DNA from: a bacterium
Lineage (GTDB): Bacteria > Planctomycetota > Planctomycetia > Planctomycetales > Planctomycetaceae
Length of the DNA: 64,000 nt
NCBI GenBank assembly: GCA_016125225.1
Contig: WGME01000014.1
Location: 124,001 to 188,000 of the forward strand
Direction: 5' to 3'
In this document: positions 34,830-54,923 of the stretch, piece after piece
Layout: each line of letters begins with the position of its first letter
Position numbering within the stretch: the first letter of the stretch is position 1
Program-made: the position numbers and the translations under genes
Notes under the pieces: generated by a model
Databases searched by the model: none
Seen by the model: only the letters and a program-made list of their open reading frames with translations
What the model was told of the DNA's origin: nothing

Positions 34830-36854
34830 TCATTCCGTCCGCTTGGGGGCAATAGCATCACGGATGACACACATCTGATCCGAATTCAACACCCGAAAAA
34901 TGGTAAGCACCTGCGTGCGGTCTTTGTCTCGTTCCTCTTCAGAGAGAAATTGCCAGGGCACGAGTTGTGGCCGCTGCTTCCCGGCCTCATCTCGCACCGG
35001 GCCCCACCGCCAACCATCGAGCAGGCGATCTGCCATCCAGCGGTTGTGTTCCATTTTGGCAAGCAGCTCGATTTCCTCGGGTTCCGGACGCTCAACGATT
35101 CGTGAGGTTTCTGCCGCAGATAAACGGGAGCGGGACACATGCCGCATCTTCAACGAATGAAGTTTGATCAAAGCATGGAGTGCGGCCGATTCGTTGGCTT
35201 GTCGATAAGTAGTCGCGAGCCGTTCCCAATCGGCGCAGGAGCCAATTCGATCGGTTCCACAGTAATGGGACTGGTAGTCCTGGTGAAACTGCTTGGCCAA
35301 CTGCTCCTGATTGGCATGCGACAGGGTATTCAATCTCACGGATTTCTCGTAACTGCCGAACGGGATCGCCAGTGGTCGTTGAGAGTCTTGAGCGTGGATG
35401 GTTGACAGAAATTTCGAAAAAGCTGGCTGCTTTGCCAGCCGCAAGTACACCGGAACGGGGCGGGCATGCACGCGAGACATCCGTTCCGAGAGTTGCATGG
35501 CCACATCAAAGCTCTGACGATCTTCGGGCAGACTGATCACAATCACCGGCTGAACATGCGGATCGGCCAGTGACGCATCCCAGCCTCCCCAGAAGGATTC
35601 ATCGACGGGATACCCGGGGCTATCCGCAAACGTCAGGTTTACAACATATTCAACGGCATGGGATACTACGCCAGCAGAATCTTGCGTTTGCCAGTAGGGG
35701 AGCGGTCGCAAACGATGCGCGCCCCATTCATCAACCGCGCGAGATATGTGAACGGATTCTTGCGATGAATCGGCAGGAGCAGGCCCCAATGTTCCATGTC
35801 GGGCCAGGCAACGATTCCGCACAGCATCGGCTTGTGGCAAGGCGACCACGACCCGTGTTCGACGGCAATTTCGGAAATGGGCTAATGCACCAATTTGCAG
35901 CGTCAGTTCTTCCGCGAATGCCTCGCCCCCAAGAATAAACACGAGCAGAGTGTCGTCGGACGTCTGCGGGGCATGCTGTACCAGATGATCCAGCACAAAT
36001 TGCTGGGCGATGTTCCTCAAAACACTGAAGGGGCGAAGATCGATACCACTGGCACGGGCCTGCTGAGAGGCATGCTTGAAGACGGCTTCACAGAGTGCGG
36101 TATCATGCAGTTGCACAAAGCACTGTCTCATCTCAGACGCCGGTGGCTGTGTCGATTCGGCTTCGGCAATGGTCTGCACGTCATTCAACCAGTCGAAGAC
36201 GATTTCGATGTTAACGTCGTCGCTGCCGGTGCAGACGAACATCCGGCGGGCTTGCGGGAAATTCGTTCGCGTTTGCAGATAGACATCGGTCGCATCGCCG
36301 GCGATCACCAGAACCCCCAGCCGCCGCCACTCCATCACGGCCGGATGATCGGCATCGCGTTCAATCACAACTAACCGCGGACACCAGTATTCGAAGAATT
36401 GCCAGCGGGATCGTCGATGGGTCGTCGCACGCAAGTCTTTCACCAGTTGCTGACCCACATCTCCCAGCCCGCAGACAATATCGTGCTGGTCTGCCATCCG
36501 CAGGCGAAAGGCCGTGAACGAATCGGCAAACACTTTCCGAATTCCGGCCCAGACGGTCAGCACAAAAAAAATGACCGCAGACATTCGGGCTAGTTTGAGC
36601 GAGAGGAAATCTTCACGAACTTCGGGCAGGCTAGCTTCCAGGATGAAGAGCTGCACGATCTGATAAACGCCACGGTCGACTTCGCGTTCGATTTGCACAT
36701 AGGCGATGACACCAAACAGAATGGTCAGCCCGGCAAAGTAGAGCTTCGGAAACTCGCGAAAGAGTCGGAAATTCATCGCCAGAATATTCCGCAGTTCGCG
36801 CGCTCGCCGCTGCCACCAGGAAAGCGGTTGCGGTTGTGTCATCTGAACCGGCAT
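34830..36854 (-). CDS. Membrane-anchored RCK/TrkA-N protein with C-terminal RyR domain
   Basis: 674 residues, with GGAAAG upstream of the ATG. Two N-terminal helices (KLYFAGLTILFGVIAYVQI and MSAVIFFVLTVWAGI) are followed by an NAD-binding RCK_N domain (IVCGLGDVGQQLVKDL, VVIERD, VIAGDATD). A second, degenerate Rossmann segment has LLVFILGGEAFAEEL. The last ~140 residues are a RyR (ryanodine receptor repeat) domain with HQDYQSHY and the hallmark EHNRWMADRLLDGWRWGP. No K-channel filter (TVGYG-like) lies between the two helices, so it is a membrane-anchored sensor rather than an obvious channel. Prokaryotic RyR domains are proposed ligand sensors in nucleotide-linked systems. Confidence 0.82.
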   Translation of the reverse strand: MPVQMTQPQPLSWWQRRARELRNILAMNFRLFREFPKLYFAGLTILFGVIAYVQIEREVDRGVYQIVQLFILEASLPEVREDFLSLKLARMSAVIFFVLTVWAGIRKVFADSFTAFRLRMADQHDIVCGLGDVGQQLVKDLRATTHRRSRWQFFEYWCPRLVVIERDADHPAVMEWRRLGVLVIAGDATDVYLQTRTNFPQARRMFVCTGSDDVNIEIVFDWLNDVQTIAEAESTQPPASEMRQCFVQLHDTALCEAVFKHASQQARASGIDLRPFSVLRNIAQQFVLDHLVQHAPQTSDDTLLVFILGGEAFAEELTLQIGALAHFRNCRRTRVVVALPQADAVRNRCLARHGTLGPAPADSSQESVHISRAVDEWGAHRLRPLPYWQTQDSAGVVSHAVEYVVNLTFADSPGYPVDESFWGGWDASLADPHVQPVIVISLPEDRQSFDVAMQLSERMSRVHARPVPVYLRLAKQPAFSKFLSTIHAQDSQRPLAIPFGSYEKSVRLNTLSHANQEQLAKQFHQDYQSHYCGTDRIGSCADWERLATTYRQANESAALHALIKLHSLKMRHVSRSRLSAAETSRIVERPEPEEIELLAKMEHNRWMADRLLDGWRWGPVRDEAGKQRPQLVPWQFLSEEERDKDRTQVLTIFRVLNSDQMCVIRDAIAPKRTE

Positions 36855-41725: not shown

Positions 41726-43075
41726 TCAGATGACGACATCTTCCACGGGAAGCCCGGTTTCCTGCGGAGTACTTCGCGCAAGCAAGGCCGTCCCCACCAC
41801 CAGCGGCCCCACCCGTCCCAGAAACATCAGGCCGATGATGACCAGTTTTCCACAAACGGAAAGCTGGCCCGTCATTCCGCGACTGAGGCCTACCGTTCCA
41901 AGGGCGGAAATGCATTCGAAGGCCTGATCAGCCGGTGGAGAGGCATCGACCAGCGTCAAAGAATAGATGCCGACGCACAGCGTTAAACCATAAAATGCGG
42001 CGTTGGCTGTCGCGGCCCGCAGTCGTTGAACCGGAATGGCCCGCCGAAAGAATGTCGCCGTCTGACGACCACGCAACACGGCCAGCATCTCGCTCCCCAA
42101 GGCTGTCATCGTGGTGGTTTTGAGGCCGCCCCCCGTTCCGCTGGGCGAGGCGCCGATCACCATCAACAGCATCAGCAGAACGAGAGTGGCATCCGACAGG
42201 CCGCTGATCGGAACCGTGTTAAAACCGACGGTTGTGCTGGCCGACATTACCTGAAATCCCGCAGACATCCATCGAGAGGTCCACGGCAATTCGTATCCCT
42301 GGGGTTCGTCGAGGGCGTAAAGCACGGTTCCGCCGAGGCTCAGGATCAGCGTGCTCCACAGAATAATTCTGGTGGTCAAAGTCGCCGTGACTTCTCGTCG
42401 TGTCAGGCTCTCCCAGAGATCGTGCAGCACAATGAACCCGATGGCACCGATGTAACTCAATACGGCAATCACCAGATTCAGGGCGACATCGTCGCTGTAG
42501 TCTTCGAGGCTGTTGTTGAACAACCCGAAGCCGGCGGTACAGAACGCACTGACGGAATGAAACAGGCTGCACCACAACGGTTGCGACACCTGATGGGCTG
42601 CAAAGCGCGGGTAAAGACAAAGGGCGCCTATGAACTCGATGGCGAATGTGAAGCAGCACACCATCTTCAGGAATCGGAGCGGCTGAAAGCCTTCCGGAAG
42701 AGCGAGCGTGCTGGTGACCATGCGATTTCGCAGAGGCGATAATTGTCCTGACACTGCCAGCACTGTAAACGAACTCAGAGTCATGTAACCGAGTCCACCG
42801 AGCTGGATCAGCGACAGCACGACCAGTTCTCCCCAGAAGCTGTAGCTATCGGAGGTGCTGACGGTGACTAATCCCGTCGTGGACACAGCCGAAACCGCCG
42901 TAAACAGATGATCGATTGCCTGCGGTTGCGGATCGGACTGACAGATTGGCAGACACAACGCCAGCCACCCCAGCAACATGTAGGAGGCGTAACCGAGAAT
43001 GAGCAACTGCACGCTGCTGCAACGATCGAGAAAGGCGGCCGCGCGGACGGCCAGCCGAGACCACAGGCGTTTCAT
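41726..43075 (-). CDS. TrkH/KtrB-type potassium transporter subunit
   Basis: 449 residues from ATG 43075, preceded by GAGGGG at 5 nt; a longer frame to 43267 was rejected because it runs through the riboswitch-bearing leader. It has four P-loops, each with a Gly at the filter: AVSTTGLVTV, FCTAGFGLF, ASTTVGFNTV and LGTVGLSRG. It imports K+ (or Na+) and normally needs an RCK-type regulatory partner (TrkA/KtrA), none of which is adjacent. The leader carries a c-di-AMP riboswitch signature, so expression is likely reduced when c-di-AMP is high. Confidence 0.93.
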   Translation of the reverse strand: MKRLWSRLAVRAAAFLDRCSSVQLLILGYASYMLLGWLALCLPICQSDPQPQAIDHLFTAVSAVSTTGLVTVSTSDSYSFWGELVVLSLIQLGGLGYMTLSSFTVLAVSGQLSPLRNRMVTSTLALPEGFQPLRFLKMVCCFTFAIEFIGALCLYPRFAAHQVSQPLWCSLFHSVSAFCTAGFGLFNNSLEDYSDDVALNLVIAVLSYIGAIGFIVLHDLWESLTRREVTATLTTRIILWSTLILSLGGTVLYALDEPQGYELPWTSRWMSAGFQVMSASTTVGFNTVPISGLSDATLVLLMLLMVIGASPSGTGGGLKTTTMTALGSEMLAVLRGRQTATFFRRAIPVQRLRAATANAAFYGLTLCVGIYSLTLVDASPPADQAFECISALGTVGLSRGMTGQLSVCGKLVIIGLMFLGRVGPLVVGTALLARSTPQETGLPVEDVVI

Positions 43076-43140
43076 GGAAACCCCTCGCATTGGCGCACGC
43101 ACAGACCCATCGACCGATAGTATGGACGACAGAGGCTGTG

Positions 43141-43166
43141 GGCATGGTTCGTTGGGAGACCATGCC
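43141..43166 (-). promoter_or_regulatory. Hairpin between riboswitch and TrkH start (possible expression platform)
   Basis: GGCATGGT and ACCATGCC form a perfect 8-bp stem with a 10-nt loop about 66 nt upstream of the start codon, downstream of the riboswitch aptamer in the transcript. It lacks a T-run, so it is not a classical intrinsic terminator; it could be part of an expression platform acting by another route. A shorter CGCGA/TCGCG hairpin (43170-43182) lies beside it. Confidence 0.35.
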
Positions 43167-43206
43167 GGTCGCGAACATCGCGAGGTCAGAGGGTCGCCCT
43201 TCCAAA

Positions 43207-43354
43207 GGGCCTGCGAGGTTAGCTGTCGGGCTGGGCCTTGGAAGTGGCCTGAACAACGGTTACCCACCGTTCTACGCCCCGTCCTGATGTGACCATCAGG
43301 AAGTTGGGTCCCCCGCGCTCAACTTGAGGAAGCAAATTGAGCCTCGGCTGCTGG
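43207..43354 (-). promoter_or_regulatory. c-di-AMP riboswitch (ydaO/yuaA leader) upstream of TrkH
   Basis: Read on the minus strand, the leader has the conserved blocks of the ydaO/yuaA motif in order: GCCGAG at the 5' side, a GCTCAA...TTGAGC stem, GGGGGACCCA (43305-43314), a CCTGATG-GTCA-CATCAGG hairpin (43283-43300), GGGGCGTA, GGGTAACCG, and GACAGCTAACCTCGCAGGC (43209-43227). The last block and GGGGGACCCA are near-identical to the B. subtilis ydaO sequence as I remember it. The terminal GCC/GGC pair closes P1. Such aptamers bind c-di-AMP and usually switch off K+-uptake or cell-wall genes. The gene downstream is a K+ transporter, as expected. Confidence 0.87.
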
Positions 43355-43359
43355 CGACT

Positions 43360-43387
43360 ATTTTACCAAGGCGTCCAATCTTGTCGA
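43360..43387 (-). promoter_or_regulatory. Promoter driving the riboswitch leader
   Basis: On the minus strand TCGACA (43382-43387) and TAAAAT (43360-43365) are separated by 16 nt, five and four to five matches to the sigma70 boxes. Transcription starting 6-8 nt downstream would begin at about 43353, at the 5' edge of the aptamer. It lies in the 96 nt between the tatC stop and the aptamer. Confidence 0.55.
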
Positions 43388-43453
43388 GTGAATTTACGCA
43401 AGACGCTATCCTGCCAATCACTTACAAACTGGACATGAACCCAAATCATGCGG

Positions 43454-47620: not shown

Positions 47621-47635
47621 CACTCGCTTATTTGC
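47613..47635. terminator. Inverted repeat over the rluD and uvrA stop codons
   Basis: GCAAATA (47613-47619) pairs with TATTTGC (47629-47635) around a 9-nt loop, covering both convergent stop codons. With only 7 bp, three of them G/C, it would be a weak hairpin. Confidence 0.35.
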
Positions 47636-50600
47636 TCAAGGACTGCAGGAAGTCTTTGAGCTTCGAATTCAAGAGCTGCTTCATGGTCGTGAACTTCAGC
47701 GACACGATATCCTGCCCGTCGCTGCCGCCGCTGATTTCTGGGTCTTCGCCGATGTCAGCGACACGCCCGAGTGAGACCGAACCCTGGCTGACCGGAAGTG
47801 CCAGTTCAATGTTCGCCGGCCGCTTGGTAACAACGGTTGCCAGTCTCTGTTTGCCCTGCTTGTAATTGACGAGCACCTTGCCCGACCAGTCGACCGTCGC
47901 CGTCGGCCAGATATCGTCCAACAGTGTGAACAAGGCTTCCAGCGTTTCGACATCCCAAGCGACTTTGCCTTTCAGAAATCCTTTCCGCATCACATGCCAT
48001 TTGCGGCCGAGTTTTTTCCACGGCGTGAGATCGTCGAGGTTCAGTTTCTCCGGATTCGCCGCTTCAAAATAGGCATCCACCGCCTCTTTCAGGAACCGTT
48101 CAAAGGCCGGAGTGGCAATGTCGTCTTCATCGATCACGGCGACATTCACTTCCTGCCACGGACCGGAAGCCTTGTTGACACGGACCCGCGGCTGACGGCC
48201 ATTCACCGGAATGTCTTCCAGTGCATCCCACTCCTTCAACTGCAACTGCTCGGCGAGACTCTCCGTTTCAAAGCGGCCCTTCGGCACATGGAACCGCAAT
48301 GTGAGCGCCCATTCATCCCCGGTCATCGCATGCAGGAACCAACCGGCGGACTTGTTCTTCGTGCCCACCATTTCAACCACGCTGCGGGCATTCCAGTTCG
48401 GCGGCGCGAAACCGTCGTTCTCCTCCAGCGTATCAATCACTTTCCGCAGCATCTCACCTGACCACCGCGGCCGTTGCCCATTGTGAGCCACCCGGTCTTG
48501 GGTGTGCCATTTCGGCCCATCAACTTCCCAGGGCATCTTCGCGTTCTTGCCAAGCTGCGAGACGTCAATATCTCCCTTGCGCCGCGACATCGCCGCCGAG
48601 GCATCGAAGGCTTCCCGATCTCCCCGCCGCCCGGCATTCAATACCGGGGCGAGGCATTTGGCGGTCAGCGACGGCATGCGTTGAGAGTTAAGAGTTGAGG
48701 GTTGAGAGTCTTTGCTTTTTGCACTGGGCACTTGGCTCTTAGCACTTAACGCTACCACCTCTTCCGGAGTCCCTTCGGCGACGATCCAGCCCCCTTCGCT
48801 GCCAGCATGCGGACCGAGGTCGATGATCCAGTCGGCCGTCTTGATCACATCGAGGTTATGCTCGATCACTACGACGGTGTTCCCGGCATCGACAAGGCTG
48901 TTCAATATCTTCAGCAGCTTGCGGATGTCATCGAAGTGCAGGCCGGTCGTGGGTTCATCGAGGAGATAGAGCGTCTGCCCCGATTGCGGCCGTGCCAACT
49001 CGGCGGCGAGTTTCACCCGCTGGGCTTCACCGCCCGACAGCGTGGGGGCCGATTGTCCCAGGGTGAGATAATCGAGACCGATGGCCGCCAGCACCGATAA
49101 CGGCCCGCGAATTTTCGGAATATTATCGAAGAGTTCGAGGGCCTGGCCGATCGACATCTCCAGCACGTCGGCGATCGACTTGTTGCGGTACTTCACGGCG
49201 AGCGTTTCGGCGTTGTATCGCTTGCCACGGCAGTCATCGCATTCGACCCACACATCAGGCAGGAAGTGCATTTCGATGCATTTCTGGCCGTTGCCTTCGC
49301 AGGTTTCACAGCGACCGCCGGGACGGTTAAAACTGAATCGCGCGGGGCGATAACCCCGTACTTTGGCATCGGGCAGACGCGCGAACAGTTCACGGATTTC
49401 CTCGAAGACGCCGGTGTATGTGGCCGGGTTGGAGGCGGGCGTGCTGCCCAGCGGTTGCTGATCGACAACAATGAGTTTACTGAGATGTTCGATCCCCAGC
49501 AGATCATCATACGGACCCGGTTGATCGCTGGTGCGATGCAGTTTTCGCGCGATGGCTTTCGCCAGCGTTTCCTGAATGAGCGAACTTTTGCCCGATCCGG
49601 AAACCCCCGTCACGGCCGTGAGTGTGCCGAGCGGAATGCGCAGATCAACATTTCGCAGATTGTTTGAGCGGGCACCGAGCAGTTCGATCCAGCCGCCACC
49701 GGGGGTTTCCGGCAGCGAGCGGGGGATGTCAGTTCCCTGATTGTGCTCGCCACTCGCAGTCGACTTGGAAGTATTACGTTTTACGGATTTCGCCGGTGCG
49801 TTCTTTGTCTTCGATGTCGGTTCAGGGGGCTTACGCCCCCCGCTCGCTATCGACATTCGTCGTTCCGACGGAATGACAATCTGTTCGCGGTCGGATAGAA
49901 ACTTGCCGGTGAGCGAATCATCCCGCTTCAGAATCTCGGCCGGCTTCCCTTGAGCAGTAATCGTGCCCCCGAAGCGACCCGCCCACGGTCCGAAATCGTA
50001 TAGACGATCGGCGGCTTCCAGGACTTCGCGATCATGTTCAACCATCACGATGGTGTTACCCAGATCTCGAAGCCGTTGCAGGGCATTCAGCAACCGGCCA
50101 TTGTCGCTGGGATGCAGGCCAATCGTCGGCTCATCGAGGACGTACAGAATGCCCGTGAGTGCTCGGCCAATTTGCCCCGCCAGCCGGATGCGTTGGGTCT
50201 CTCCACCCGAGAGCGTCGGCAAAGGTCGACCGAGCGTGAGATAGTGCAGGCCGACATCAACTAGGAACGACAGTCGGCTGGTGGCTTCCGTGAGCAGATC
50301 GCCAGCAACCTTCTTCTGTGCTGCGGTGAATTTCAGCTTCGTGAGGAAGTCGAGCGCCGCCGATAACGGCAGATCGCAAACCTGCTTCAGCGTCTTGCCC
50401 TGCATCCGGACGGCGGCCGCATCATCCCGCAAGCGGCTGCCCCCACATGTCGTGCAGGGGACTTCGCCGATCAATTCGTACAACTGCTGACGGTAGTGGA
50501 ACGAAACCCGCGATGCTTCTTCGATCGCCGGGTACAGCCCCTTGTACTGAAACGAAAACCCCGACAAGCGGGGGGCATGAGCCCCCTGAATGGATGATCC

Positions 50601-53600
50601 ACCCATCGCAAGTTTGGACGTTTTCCTTGCCGTGGATTTCGGTGTTGCTGTTTTTTTCTTTGATGTCGATTCCGAGACCTGCGGCCCGCTGTTCGCGGAG
50701 ATCCATTTGTCGCCGCTGCCGTAGAGCACCAATCGCTGGTGCTGGGCGTCTAACTGTGAAAAAGGGACATTCAATGGCAAATCGAATTCGCGTGACAGGG
50801 AGTGCAGCATCTGGCGAAAGAGAGGCCGTGATGCCGGGTCGGGCCAGACCGCGACGGCTCCTTCTTCCAGCGTGCGGGTCGGGTCGGAAATCAAGGCGGC
50901 CAGATTGGTCCCCTGCTGTGTCCCTAAGCCTTCACACGAGGGGCACCAGCCGAGTGGGCTGTTGAACGAAAAATTCTGCGGCGACAGTTCCTCGAAACTC
51001 CGGCCGCATTGCTGACAGGCTCGGAAGAGGCTGAACGGCGTCACCTTCCATTCGGGTTCCGGCCGCGCTTCATCGACCAAGGCGGCACGAATCACACCTT
51101 GCCCGAGATCAAATGCGGTTTCGATGGAATCCGCCAGGCGAGACCGTGACATCGTGCCAATGGTCACCCGATCGATGACGATCTCCACGTTGTGCTTGCG
51201 GCGGCGATCGATCTCCGGGACTTCATCGAGCGTATGAGTCTGGCCATCAACCCGCACGCGGCGGAAGCCCTGTTCCTTCAGGCGTTCCCACAACTTGGCA
51301 TACTGCTGGCCGACCGTGACTTCCTGCGGTGCGAGGATCAGCAGGCGTGATTCCGGCGGATAGGCCTGCAGCTTTTCGATCACATCATCAACCGTTTGTG
51401 TTTCGACGGCGATATGACAATCGGGGCAGTGCGGCGTGCCCAGTCGGGCATAGAGAATACGTAGGTAATCATAGATTTCGGTGACGGTGCCGATGGTGCT
51501 GCGGGGCGTGCTGCCGACTGTCTTCTGCTCGATGGCGATCGCTGGTTGCAGGCCGTGGATGTACTCGACCTTCGGCTTGGGCATCTGTCCGAGAAACTGC
51601 CGGGCATAGCTCGACAGCGATTCGACATACCGGCGTTGCCCCTCGGCATAGAGCGTATCCATGGCGAGCGAACTTTTGCCGCTGCCACTGGGACCGCAGA
51701 AAACCGACATCTTTTCGCGCGGGATTTCGATGTCGACGTGTTGCAGGTTGTGCTGAGCCGCCCCTTTGACCACGACGTTCTCGCGGGCCGACTGATTCTT
51801 CTCCAGGGCGGAAGCCGTTTGCCAGCGCGGTCCGGAAAGATCGGGCAGCGCACGCGCCGCACTCTTTGGGGTTTTCTTCGTTTCTTTCTTCGGCGTGGCC
51901 AACTCAGGCAATCGCATGGCCCGCCGCAACGCCTGACCCGTGTAAGAATGCGGGCAGGCGGCGATGTCTGCCGGCGTGCCTGTCGCGATGATCTCGCCGC
52001 CGCCGCTGCCCCCTTCGGGACCGAGATCGATAATCCAGTCGGCCGTCTTAATCACATCGAGATTGTGCTCCACCACGATGACGGTATTGCCCACATCGAC
52101 GAAGCCGTGCAGCACGCGCAGCAGATGCTCAATATCGACGAAGTGCAATCCGGTCGTCGGTTCATCGAGGATGTAGAGCGTCTTGCCAGTCGATCGCTTG
52201 CCGAGTTCTTTGGCGAGCTTCACGCGTTGGGCTTCACCACCTGACAGCGTGGGCGAGGGCTGACCGAGCTTGATGTAATCCAGGCCGACATCGTGCAATG
52301 TTTGCAACAACTGTTTGATCTTGGGAATCGCGGCGAAGTGCTCAAGTGCTTCCTGCACGTCCATGTTGAGCACTTCGGAAATGTTCTTTCCCTTGAAGCG
52401 GACTTCCAACGTTTCCTTGTTGAAGCGACGGCCCTGACAGACGGGGCAAGTGACCCAGATATCGGCGAGGAAGTCCATCTCCAGCTTATTGGCCCCGTTT
52501 CCTTCACACGCCTCGCAACGGCCTCCTTCAACATTGAAACTGAACCGGCCGGGCTGAAAACCGCGCTGTTTCGACTCGGGCAATTTCGTATAGAGATCGC
52601 GGATCAGGTCGAACAGTTTCACATAAGTCGCCGGGTTCGACCGTGGCGTGCGACCGATCGGGGATTGATCGATGTCGATCGCCTTGTCGATCAACTCCAG
52701 TCCGGTGAGGCTGTCGTGCTCGCCGGGATGACCATCCCCTTTGTTGATGTCACGGTTCAACACTTGCCAGAGAATGTCATTGATGAGTGAGCTTTTGCCG
52801 CTGCCACTCACCCCCGTGATGCAGATGAACTTGCCAAGTGGAAAGTTCGTGGTGACGTTTTTCAGGTTGTGATGCCGGGCACCGGAGATGGTGAGTTGAG
52901 GGTTGAGGATTGAGGGTTGAGGGTCAGGAGTTTTTCTCCGGGCTTTACTTTGAACCCTCAACGCTGAACTCTCAACGTCTTTCAATTCAGGGGACTCACG
53001 TCCCCCGCTCGCTGGTCGCGATTTGATGATGTCGATGGTCCGGCGACCCGACAGGAAGGCTCCGGTCACGCTTTCCTCGGCGGCTTTGACGTTCTCGACC
53101 GAACCTTCGGCGACGATCTTCCCGCCGCGCACGCCGGGACCGGGGCCGAAGTCGACAATGTAATCGGCGGCGTGCATTGTCTCGTCATCATGTTCGACGA
53201 CGATCACCGTATTGCCCTGATCTCGCAGATCCTGCAGCGAGCCGAGCAGCATGGTGTTATCGCGGGGGTGCAGACCGATCGAGGGTTCATCGAGAATGTA
53301 AACCACACCGACCAGACCACAGCCAATTTGACCGGCCAGCCGAATCCGCTGGCTTTCACCACCAGAGAGTGTCGGGGCCGTGCGATCCAACGTGAGATAA
53401 TCGAGTCCACACCGCAGCAGGAACCCCAGTCGCCCGCGGATCTCTTTCAGGATTTCATCGGCGATGAGATGTTCGGTGTCACTCAATGCGAGATCGCCGA
53501 AGAACGCGGCGGCCTCGGCAATGCTGAGGGCACAGACGTCCGGCAGCGACAACGCGCCACGATCTGCGGATGTCACGCGGTAGCTCATCGCCTGGGCATT

Positions 53601-54923
53601 GAACCGGGCTCCATGACAGGTGGTGCAGCCGGTGAACTCCATGTACTTTTCGAGCTGTTTCCGCCGCATCGGGTTCTTGGACTTGCGGTACTCTTCGACG
53701 AGTTCGGGAATTAATCCGGCGAACTTGCCCGTATGTTTCCACACGCCGCCGCGATGCTTGTAACCGAACGTGATCACGCGGTCGCCGAGACCGTACAGAA
53801 ACTTCTGCTGCGCCTCCGCTGACAAATTTTGCCAGGGTGTTTTGAGAATCGAGCGCTCCGGCAGTCCGAGTTCCTTCTCGATGGTTTTGGTCACGCCGTC
53901 ATAGATGTGTTTCCGCCAACGGCCAAGGCTCGACCATTTGCCCAGCAGTTCAAAGGCCCCCTTGGCGATGCTGATGGTCGGGTCGGCCAGGATGCGATCA
54001 AGCCGGAAATCGTGCCGCATGCCGAGGCCATTGCAGTCGAGGCACATCCCGAGCGGGCTGTTGAAGCTGAAGAGTTGTGGCGAAGGCGGTTCGTAGCTGA
54101 TGCCGCAGTGCGTGCAGGCATACGCGCTCGAAAACAGTTGGTCCTGGTTGAGAGTTGAGGGTTGAGAGTCGAGAGTGGGGTCCTGTTCCAGCGAATTTCC
54201 GCGCACTTCGCGAGATATGATCAGTTTGCCATCGGCAAGATTCAACGCCTGTTCGACCGCTTCGGCCGTTCTCGCGCGGGGCGTCTTACCCGCAATGAGA
54301 CGATCGACCACCAGATCGATCGTGTGCCGCATCTGCTTATCGAGCTTCAGGTCGCTGTCGAGTTGCACGACATCGCCATCGACCCGGGCTCGCAGATAAC
54401 CCTGCTTAAGCAGATCAGCGAAGAGGTCTTTGAACTCTCCTTTTTGCCGTTGCACCAGCGGAGCCAGCACCGAGAAGCGGGTCCCGTCGGGAAGTCGCAA
54501 GACCTGCTCGACAATCTGCTCACGTGATTGGGCGGTGATCGGCCGCCCGCACTGGTAACACGCCGCCTCGCCGATGCGGGCATACAGCACCCGCAAGTAA
54601 TCAAAAATTTCGGTGATGGTGCCGACGGTGCTGCGGGGATTTTTACCGGCCGTCTTCTGCTGAATGGAAATCGAGGGAGCGAGGCCGGTGATGGCATCGA
54701 CATCGGGCTTCGGCATCTGACCCAGAAACTGTCGGGCATAGCTCGACAGCGATTCGACGTACCGGCGTTGCCCTTCGGCATAGAGCGTGTCAAAGGCCAG
54801 TGAGCTTTTGCCCGACCCGCTGACGCCGGTCATCACGATGAGTTTGTTGCGGGGCAGCGTCAACGAAACATTCTGCAGGTTATGTTCGCGGGCACCGCGA
54901 ATGACGATCGGGGAATCGGTCAT
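47628..54923 (-). CDS. uvrA: Tandem (duplicated) UvrA excinuclease subunit with C-terminal extension
   Basis: 2431 residues, against about 940 for ordinary UvrA. Residues ~1-1000 and ~1045-2055 are two complete UvrA copies, each with two ABC modules (four Walker A motifs GVSGSGKSS or GPSGSGKSS and four LSGGE signatures) and Cys zinc modules ([35 protein letters not shown]). This gives a pseudo-dimer in one chain. The last ~350 residues are not UvrA. UvrA recognises bulky DNA lesions and loads UvrB. Chlamydial UvrA is also a fused duplication. The frame is unbroken, and short repeats have been inserted in frame at its linkers. Confidence 0.95.
48680..48752 (-). repeat. GTTGAGRGTTGAG tandem element, in-frame in uvrA (copy 1)
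   Basis: The block 48680-48710 has tandem GTTGAGAGTTAAGAGTTGAGG units and shares a 20-nt core with copy 3. It is followed by GCACT/CTTAGCACTT repeats to 48752. It encodes about residues 2058-2082 ([22 protein letters not shown]), exactly at the boundary between the second UvrA copy and the C-terminal extension. Confidence 0.75.
49821..49848. repeat. Palindromic repeat in uvrA (copy A)
   Basis: TTCAGGGGGCTTACGCCCCCC is followed by GCTCGCT. The GGGGG...CCCCC palindrome closes on TTACG. It falls in the linker between the two ABC modules of the second UvrA copy (about residues 1692-1701, [10 protein letters not shown]), and is read in frame. Confidence 0.75.
50567..50590. repeat. Palindromic repeat in uvrA (copy B, inverted)
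   Basis: This is the reverse complement of the copy A element: AGCGGGGGGCATGAGCCCCCTGAA. It encodes about residues 1445-1453 in a Gly/Ser-rich insertion ([15 protein letters not shown]) of the first ABC module of the second UvrA copy; the first copy lacks this insertion. Confidence 0.72.
52891..52977. repeat. GTTGAGGG tandem element with inverted arm in uvrA (copy 2)
   Basis: The left arm (52891-52923) is GTTGAGGG-type tandem units; the right arm (52951-52977) carries the complementary CCCTCAACG and CTCTCAACG units, so the element is an inverted repeat. It is coding (about residues 649-678, with [12 protein letters not shown]) in the linker between the two ABC modules of the first UvrA copy. 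Confidence 0.72.
52986..53013. repeat. Palindromic repeat in uvrA (copy C)
   Basis: TTCAGGGGACTCACGTCCCCCGCTCGCT keeps the same ends and palindrome as copy A, with compensating changes in the stem. It is coding (about residues 637-647, [11 protein letters not shown]), beside the tandem element copy 2 in the same linker. First 20 bases are enough to recognise it. Confidence 0.72.
54147..54176 (-). repeat. GTTGAG tandem element in uvrA (copy 3)
   Basis: GTTGAGAGTTGAGGGTTGAG units with the same 20-nt core as copy 1. It encodes about residues 250-259 ([10 protein letters not shown]) in the loop before the CTHCG zinc module of the first UvrA copy. Confidence 0.72.

Follow-up and report, generated by a model that had tools for sequence, protein, structure and literature searches.

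A probable ydaO/yuaA-class c-di-AMP riboswitch in the leader of a planctomycete ktrB gene

Work on c-di-AMP signalling has been carried out mainly in the Firmicutes and Actinobacteria, and the ydaO/yuaA riboswitch family takes its name in part from the leader of yuaA (ktrA). A ydaO/yuaA riboswitch mediates the repression of both KtrAB and KimA in B. subtilis (PMC7857571, PMC7288161). Corynebacterium has a c-di-AMP riboswitch that lacks a terminator and acts on translation, and the paper on it presents riboswitches for c-di-AMP as off-switches (PMC9960051). The class, its ligand, its gene linkage and its pseudoknot are already known; the locus described here is a good new example, and the pairing recurs across the phylum. 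We found no paper on c-di-AMP riboswitches in Planctomycetes in a search that covered mainly the openly accessible literature.

The window (the whole 64-kb stretch of DNA that was analyzed) belongs to a planctomycete genome of 6.35 Mb. It was scanned using Infernal and the Rfam RF00379 model (c-di-AMP, ydaO/yuaA; gathering score 38 bits). The features of the locus, in window coordinates, are:

41726..43075, minus strand: K+ transporter gene of the ktrB/trkH family, 449 aa (PF02386, E 2.2e-49; best solved relatives KtrB, E 8e-64)
43081..43088, minus strand: GCGAGGGG, Shine-Dalgarno-like; the complementary CCTCGC occurs once within the aptamer (43218-43213) and once beyond its downstream end (43185-43180)
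43141..43183, minus strand: two leader hairpins, TCGCGATGTTCGCGA and GGCATGGT...ACCATGCC, predicted by folding, without a U-run behind them
43193..43359, minus strand: c-di-AMP riboswitch aptamer, RF00379 (57.1 bits, E 1.3e-10)
43196..43210, minus strand: inverted repeat GCCCTTTGGAAGGGC, a potential competitor of P1 and pseudoknot pairing (local hairpin when the 3' part is folded alone)
43199..43205, minus strand: pseudoknot 3' strand TTGGAAG, just after P1 (covaries with the 5' strand over 59 loci)
43209..43227, minus strand: core element GACAGCTAACCTCGCAGGC (RF00379 alignment)
43238..43244, minus strand: pseudoknot 5' strand CTTCCAA, in a hairpin loop (complementarity over 59 loci)
43257..43265, minus strand: GGGTAACCG, apical part of a variable hairpin
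43273..43280, minus strand: core element GGGGCGTA, consensus GGGGUGAA (RF00379 alignment)
43305..43314, minus strand: core element GGGGGACCCA (RF00379 alignment; identical letters in the crystallised RNA 4QLM, PMC5393176)
43346..43348, minus strand: P1 5' strand GCC, paired with GGC 43209-43211 (RF00379 alignment)
43360..43387, minus strand: sigma-70-type promoter TCGACA-16-TAAAAT, the -10 ending 10 nt before P1
43454..44557, minus strand: tatC (PF00902), upstream neighbour, outside the system

The initial annotation had placed a ydaO/yuaA aptamer on the minus strand at 43205-43390, and the scan gave a significant match there that covered all 134 positions of the model and scored well above the gathering score. 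The aptamer is real, although its span was shifted: Rfam matches 43193-43359, with 43199 as the last position of the pseudoknot strand. It was the sole Rfam family match above cutoff within the window and the single RF00379 match in the genome, with a score in the lower portion of the range for the phylum. The four motifs on which the annotation was based were all present; GGGGGACCCA, GGGGCGTA and GACAGCTAACCTCGCAGGC are core elements, while GGGTAACCG has no diagnostic value since it lies in the variable hairpin. The outermost P1 pair is an A.C mismatch in the window; in most relatives from the family, too, this position is occupied by a non-standard pair. A mir-790 match on the opposite strand (cmscan) was far under its cutoff and was dismissed. 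A closing helix around the whole aptamer (GTCGCC/GGCGAC) can be drawn in the window but was given no weight, having no counterpart in the orthologous leader L040 and most relatives.

When compared with the crystallised ydaO RNA (4QLM/4QLN; PMC5393176), the window has the same GCGGGGGACCCA and CAGCTAACCTCGCA, and its pseudoknot CUUCCAA/UUGGAAG has the layout of CUCCUUCG/CGAAGGAG in that RNA (the 4QLM pairing was read from the sequence in PMC5393176). The stretch joining the hairpin stem to the pseudoknot strand is one nucleotide shorter in the window, and the junction reads GGGGCGUAG where the crystallised RNA has GGGGCGAAU. With the B. subtilis ktrAB/kimA leaders (RF00379), it has in common the aptamer core, the pseudoknot between hairpin loop and post-P1 strand, and a Ktr-type K+ transporter downstream. 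It differs from them in having no intrinsic terminator and no ktrA adjacent to ktrB, and two of its aptamer hairpins carry larger variable inserts.

The pseudoknot lies outside the RF00379 alignment scoring, so that the support it gives is separate from the 57.1-bit score. In the window alone, its 7 bp are a length reached by 1.5% of shuffled tails, which is modest, and we take the strength of the pseudoknot from a set of 59 loci drawn from the window genome, its family and its phylum. The longest Watson-Crick run between loop and tail averaged 5.71 over these loci, as against 4.20 +/- 0.11 with shuffled tails (maximum 4.47) and 4.46 +/- 0.13 with permuted partners (maximum 4.83). At least 6 bp were found in 37 of the 59 loci, where 4.2 were expected. 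The two strands also covaried, with compensatory forms CTTCCAA/TTGGAAG, CTTTCAA/TTGAAAG, CTCTTCG/CGAAGAG and CCTGAA/TTCAGG in the set. An aptamer in a named Gemmataceae MAG (L116) has the CTTTCAA/TTGAAAG form that is common in the family of the window genome, which fits a planctomycete origin of the window. A comparison of neighbouring genes gave no link between the window and this MAG.

We also observed aptamers in which the 3' strand of the pseudoknot lies about 20-50 nt farther downstream (L035, L036, L037, L038, L039, L041, L057, and L116 4409-4505). These have a hairpin-forming insert after P1 and keep the CTTTCAA/TTGAAAG-type pairing; genes of a Band_7 cluster stand downstream of several of them.

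The promoter proposed earlier for the 5' edge of the aptamer was found at 43387-43360. The motif occurred once (0.1 +/- 0.3 expected from shuffles), and its spacing recurs in relatives. Among the 58 loci with enough upstream sequence, nine had a promoter-like pair within 150 nt upstream, and all nine ended 10-17 nt before P1, a zone in which shuffles had 0.44 such pairs on average. This indicates that transcripts of the class start at the aptamer edge, with the start in the window predicted near 43353.

The gene 118 nt downstream on the same strand was initially annotated as a TrkH K+ importer. It is indeed a K+ uptake gene of the Trk/Ktr domain family, but KtrB-like and not TrkH proper: ktrB is the better name, since the closest solved relatives are Ktr subunit B and a KtrA homologue is encoded elsewhere in the genome (a KtrA/KtrC-like protein at G000:C6, 227 aa, TrkA_N plus TrkA_C). 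The E. coli-type TrkH equivalog of NCBIfam was rejected (25.8 bits, cutoff 866), and the TrkH-family subfamily model TIGR00933 scored 283.4 bits, under its cutoff of 331.15. With a KtrB-like gene downstream, the pairing is of the same kind as in the yuaA (ktrA) leader. Translation probably begins at ATG 43075, preceded by GCGAGGGG, in agreement with the ortholog in G410. This start was favoured over GTG 43267, which lies inside the aptamer and whose open reading frame is spurious in its 5' part.

Riboswitch-linked KtrBs in several other families of the phylum showed 46-56% identity to the window KtrB. Among the TrkH-type proteins of 41 genomes of its own family, only that of G410 was equally close (56%), the others being at most 39% identical, and the G410 gene also stands behind an aptamer (L040). 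This pattern indicates that the aptamer and this KtrB clade travel together. The KtrB/TrkH-type protein used as bait in named genomes gave no match. The full-length RF00379 match with its covarying pseudoknot, the promoter that borders it, the K+ transporter gene closely downstream and the recurrence of this linkage make it very probable that a ydaO/yuaA-class c-di-AMP riboswitch forms the 5' leader of the ktrB mRNA.

By analogy with B. subtilis ktrAB/kimA and the terminator-less nlpC riboswitch of Corynebacterium, we consider an off-switch likely, in which c-di-AMP lowers KtrB synthesis. High K+ would raise c-di-AMP, the ligand would stabilise P1 and the pseudoknot, and the ligand-bound leader would give less KtrB. 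We searched the ktrB leader for an intrinsic terminator and found none, so control at translation start or by Rho would be likelier than intrinsic termination. The C. glutamicum nlpC riboswitch (PMC9960051) likewise has no canonical terminator, and its ribosome-binding site also has a complement in a CTCC-type segment; it controls a cell-wall peptidase rather than ktrB, and its translational action is known from reporters, whereas that of the ktrB leader is suggested by comparison. In the ktrB leader GCGAGGGG is complementary to the CCTCGC segments, and the GCCCTTTGGAAGGGC repeat is a possible switching hairpin, as judged from folding. When locked and free aptamers were folded, the Shine-Dalgarno pairing was unchanged and no switch was visible; in either ensemble of the fold model, the ribosome-binding site was paired to the beginning of the coding sequence.

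The same complementarity could also serve a c-di-AMP-binding on-switch, with CCTCGCA (43218-43212) masking the TGCGAGG of the ribosome-binding site as long as no ligand is bound and the ligand freeing the site. CCTCGCA is the exact 7-nt complement of TGCGAGG (43089-43083), and the orthologous leader L040 has a comparable CTCCGT/ACGGAG match. However, some complementarity is to be expected of purine-rich ribosome-binding sites, the CCTCGCA/TGCGAGG pairing was absent from the predicted ensemble, high c-di-AMP is a signal of K+ sufficiency, and the class is described as off-switches (PMC9960051). We regard an on-switch as unlikely.

The genome encodes a single DAC-domain protein (81.4 bits against a cutoff of 27), the predicted diadenylate cyclase that the initial annotation called for. 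It is a 454-aa fusion with an N-terminal PTS EIIA-type domain (PTS_EIIA_2-DacZ_P-DAC):

G000:C27:1101579-1102940 (L002 559-1920): EIIA-DacZ-DAC cyclase, from domain matches

Full-length relatives of the fusion occur in seven of the 41 family genomes, the window genome included. The catalytic DGA is kept and RHR reads RHQ, as in most fusions; most unfused family members have RHW. It is plausible that the protein is an active cyclase, and it would be the source of c-di-AMP in the off-switch model. A DHH-DHHA1 protein is also encoded in the genome and could be a phosphodiesterase.

In the window a U takes the place of the first A of GGGGUGAAU; roughly half of the 59 loci, this one among them, lack that A, which is a caveat on the ligand pocket. 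This change, the RHQ of the genome's only cyclase, and a congener with two riboswitches and only a divergent DAC domain would all fit an aptamer that answers a related ligand in this lineage, for example another cyclic dinucleotide. We consider this very improbable, as the window agrees with the c-di-AMP class in its core segments and in the linkage to a K+ gene, the second A of the GGGGUGAAU junction is retained, and DAC domains occur in 361 of 392 sampled phylum genomes (92%). The congener (G411, same genus, two RF00379 matches) has no DacZ-type cyclase; its sole DAC protein, L259 (G411:C1:320313-320627), is a divergent DACNG-DACNH-DAC protein with RYN for RHR. A decayed or chance match without function, to which a score in the lower part of the phylum range might point, is hardly credible given the full-length match at E 1.3e-10, the intact and covarying pseudoknot, and the conserved promoter spacing and linkage to a distinct KtrB clade.

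The locus had been proposed to extend the class to planctomycetes. The aptamer is present there but is not singular: RF00379 matches were found in at least 45 of the 392 phylum genomes sampled (a lower bound, as the filters were strict), in the named Gemmataceae MAG (L116), and in records of Verrucomicrobia, Acidobacteria (Pyrinomonadaceae), Chloroflexi, Armatimonadetes, Nitrospirae and Eremiobacterota. The downstream proteins of the set were mainly for K+ uptake, with 18 in a KtrB/TrkH cluster, 19 in a KimA/APC-like cluster (one representative matching KimA, PDB 6s3k, at 4.6e-54) and two Kup. A Band_7/SPFH cluster had eight members, one representative of which was confirmed, and there were singletons, one of them a PTS EIIA. 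Because the longest ORF was taken as the downstream gene, a small number of the singletons may be misassigned.

We tentatively suggest, as one possibility, that a c-di-AMP/K+ regulon particular to the phylum exists, with riboswitches before genes for KtrB, KimA-like, Kup and Band_7 (SPFH) proteins. In some of these riboswitches an inserted hairpin displaces the pseudoknot strand, and in the window lineage the EIIA-fused cyclase would feed the regulon. If so, this cyclase would link phosphotransferase state to K+ uptake. The loci make a c-di-AMP-controlled K+ regulon directly testable in another large phylum, and the 59 offer natural aptamer variants (displaced pseudoknot strand, altered junction bases) for structure-function work.

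Separately, in L060 (G188:C125), an RF00379 match at 38.1 bits precedes a PTS EIIA gene that stands alone, so that the riboswitch class is tied to EIIA proteins a second time. At a distance of about 5 kb from ktrB, the window encodes a TrkA_N protein with a C-terminal RyR domain (34833-36854, minus strand). A 2431-aa ORF at 47628-54923 (minus strand) looks like two UvrA units in-frame with a C-terminal extension.
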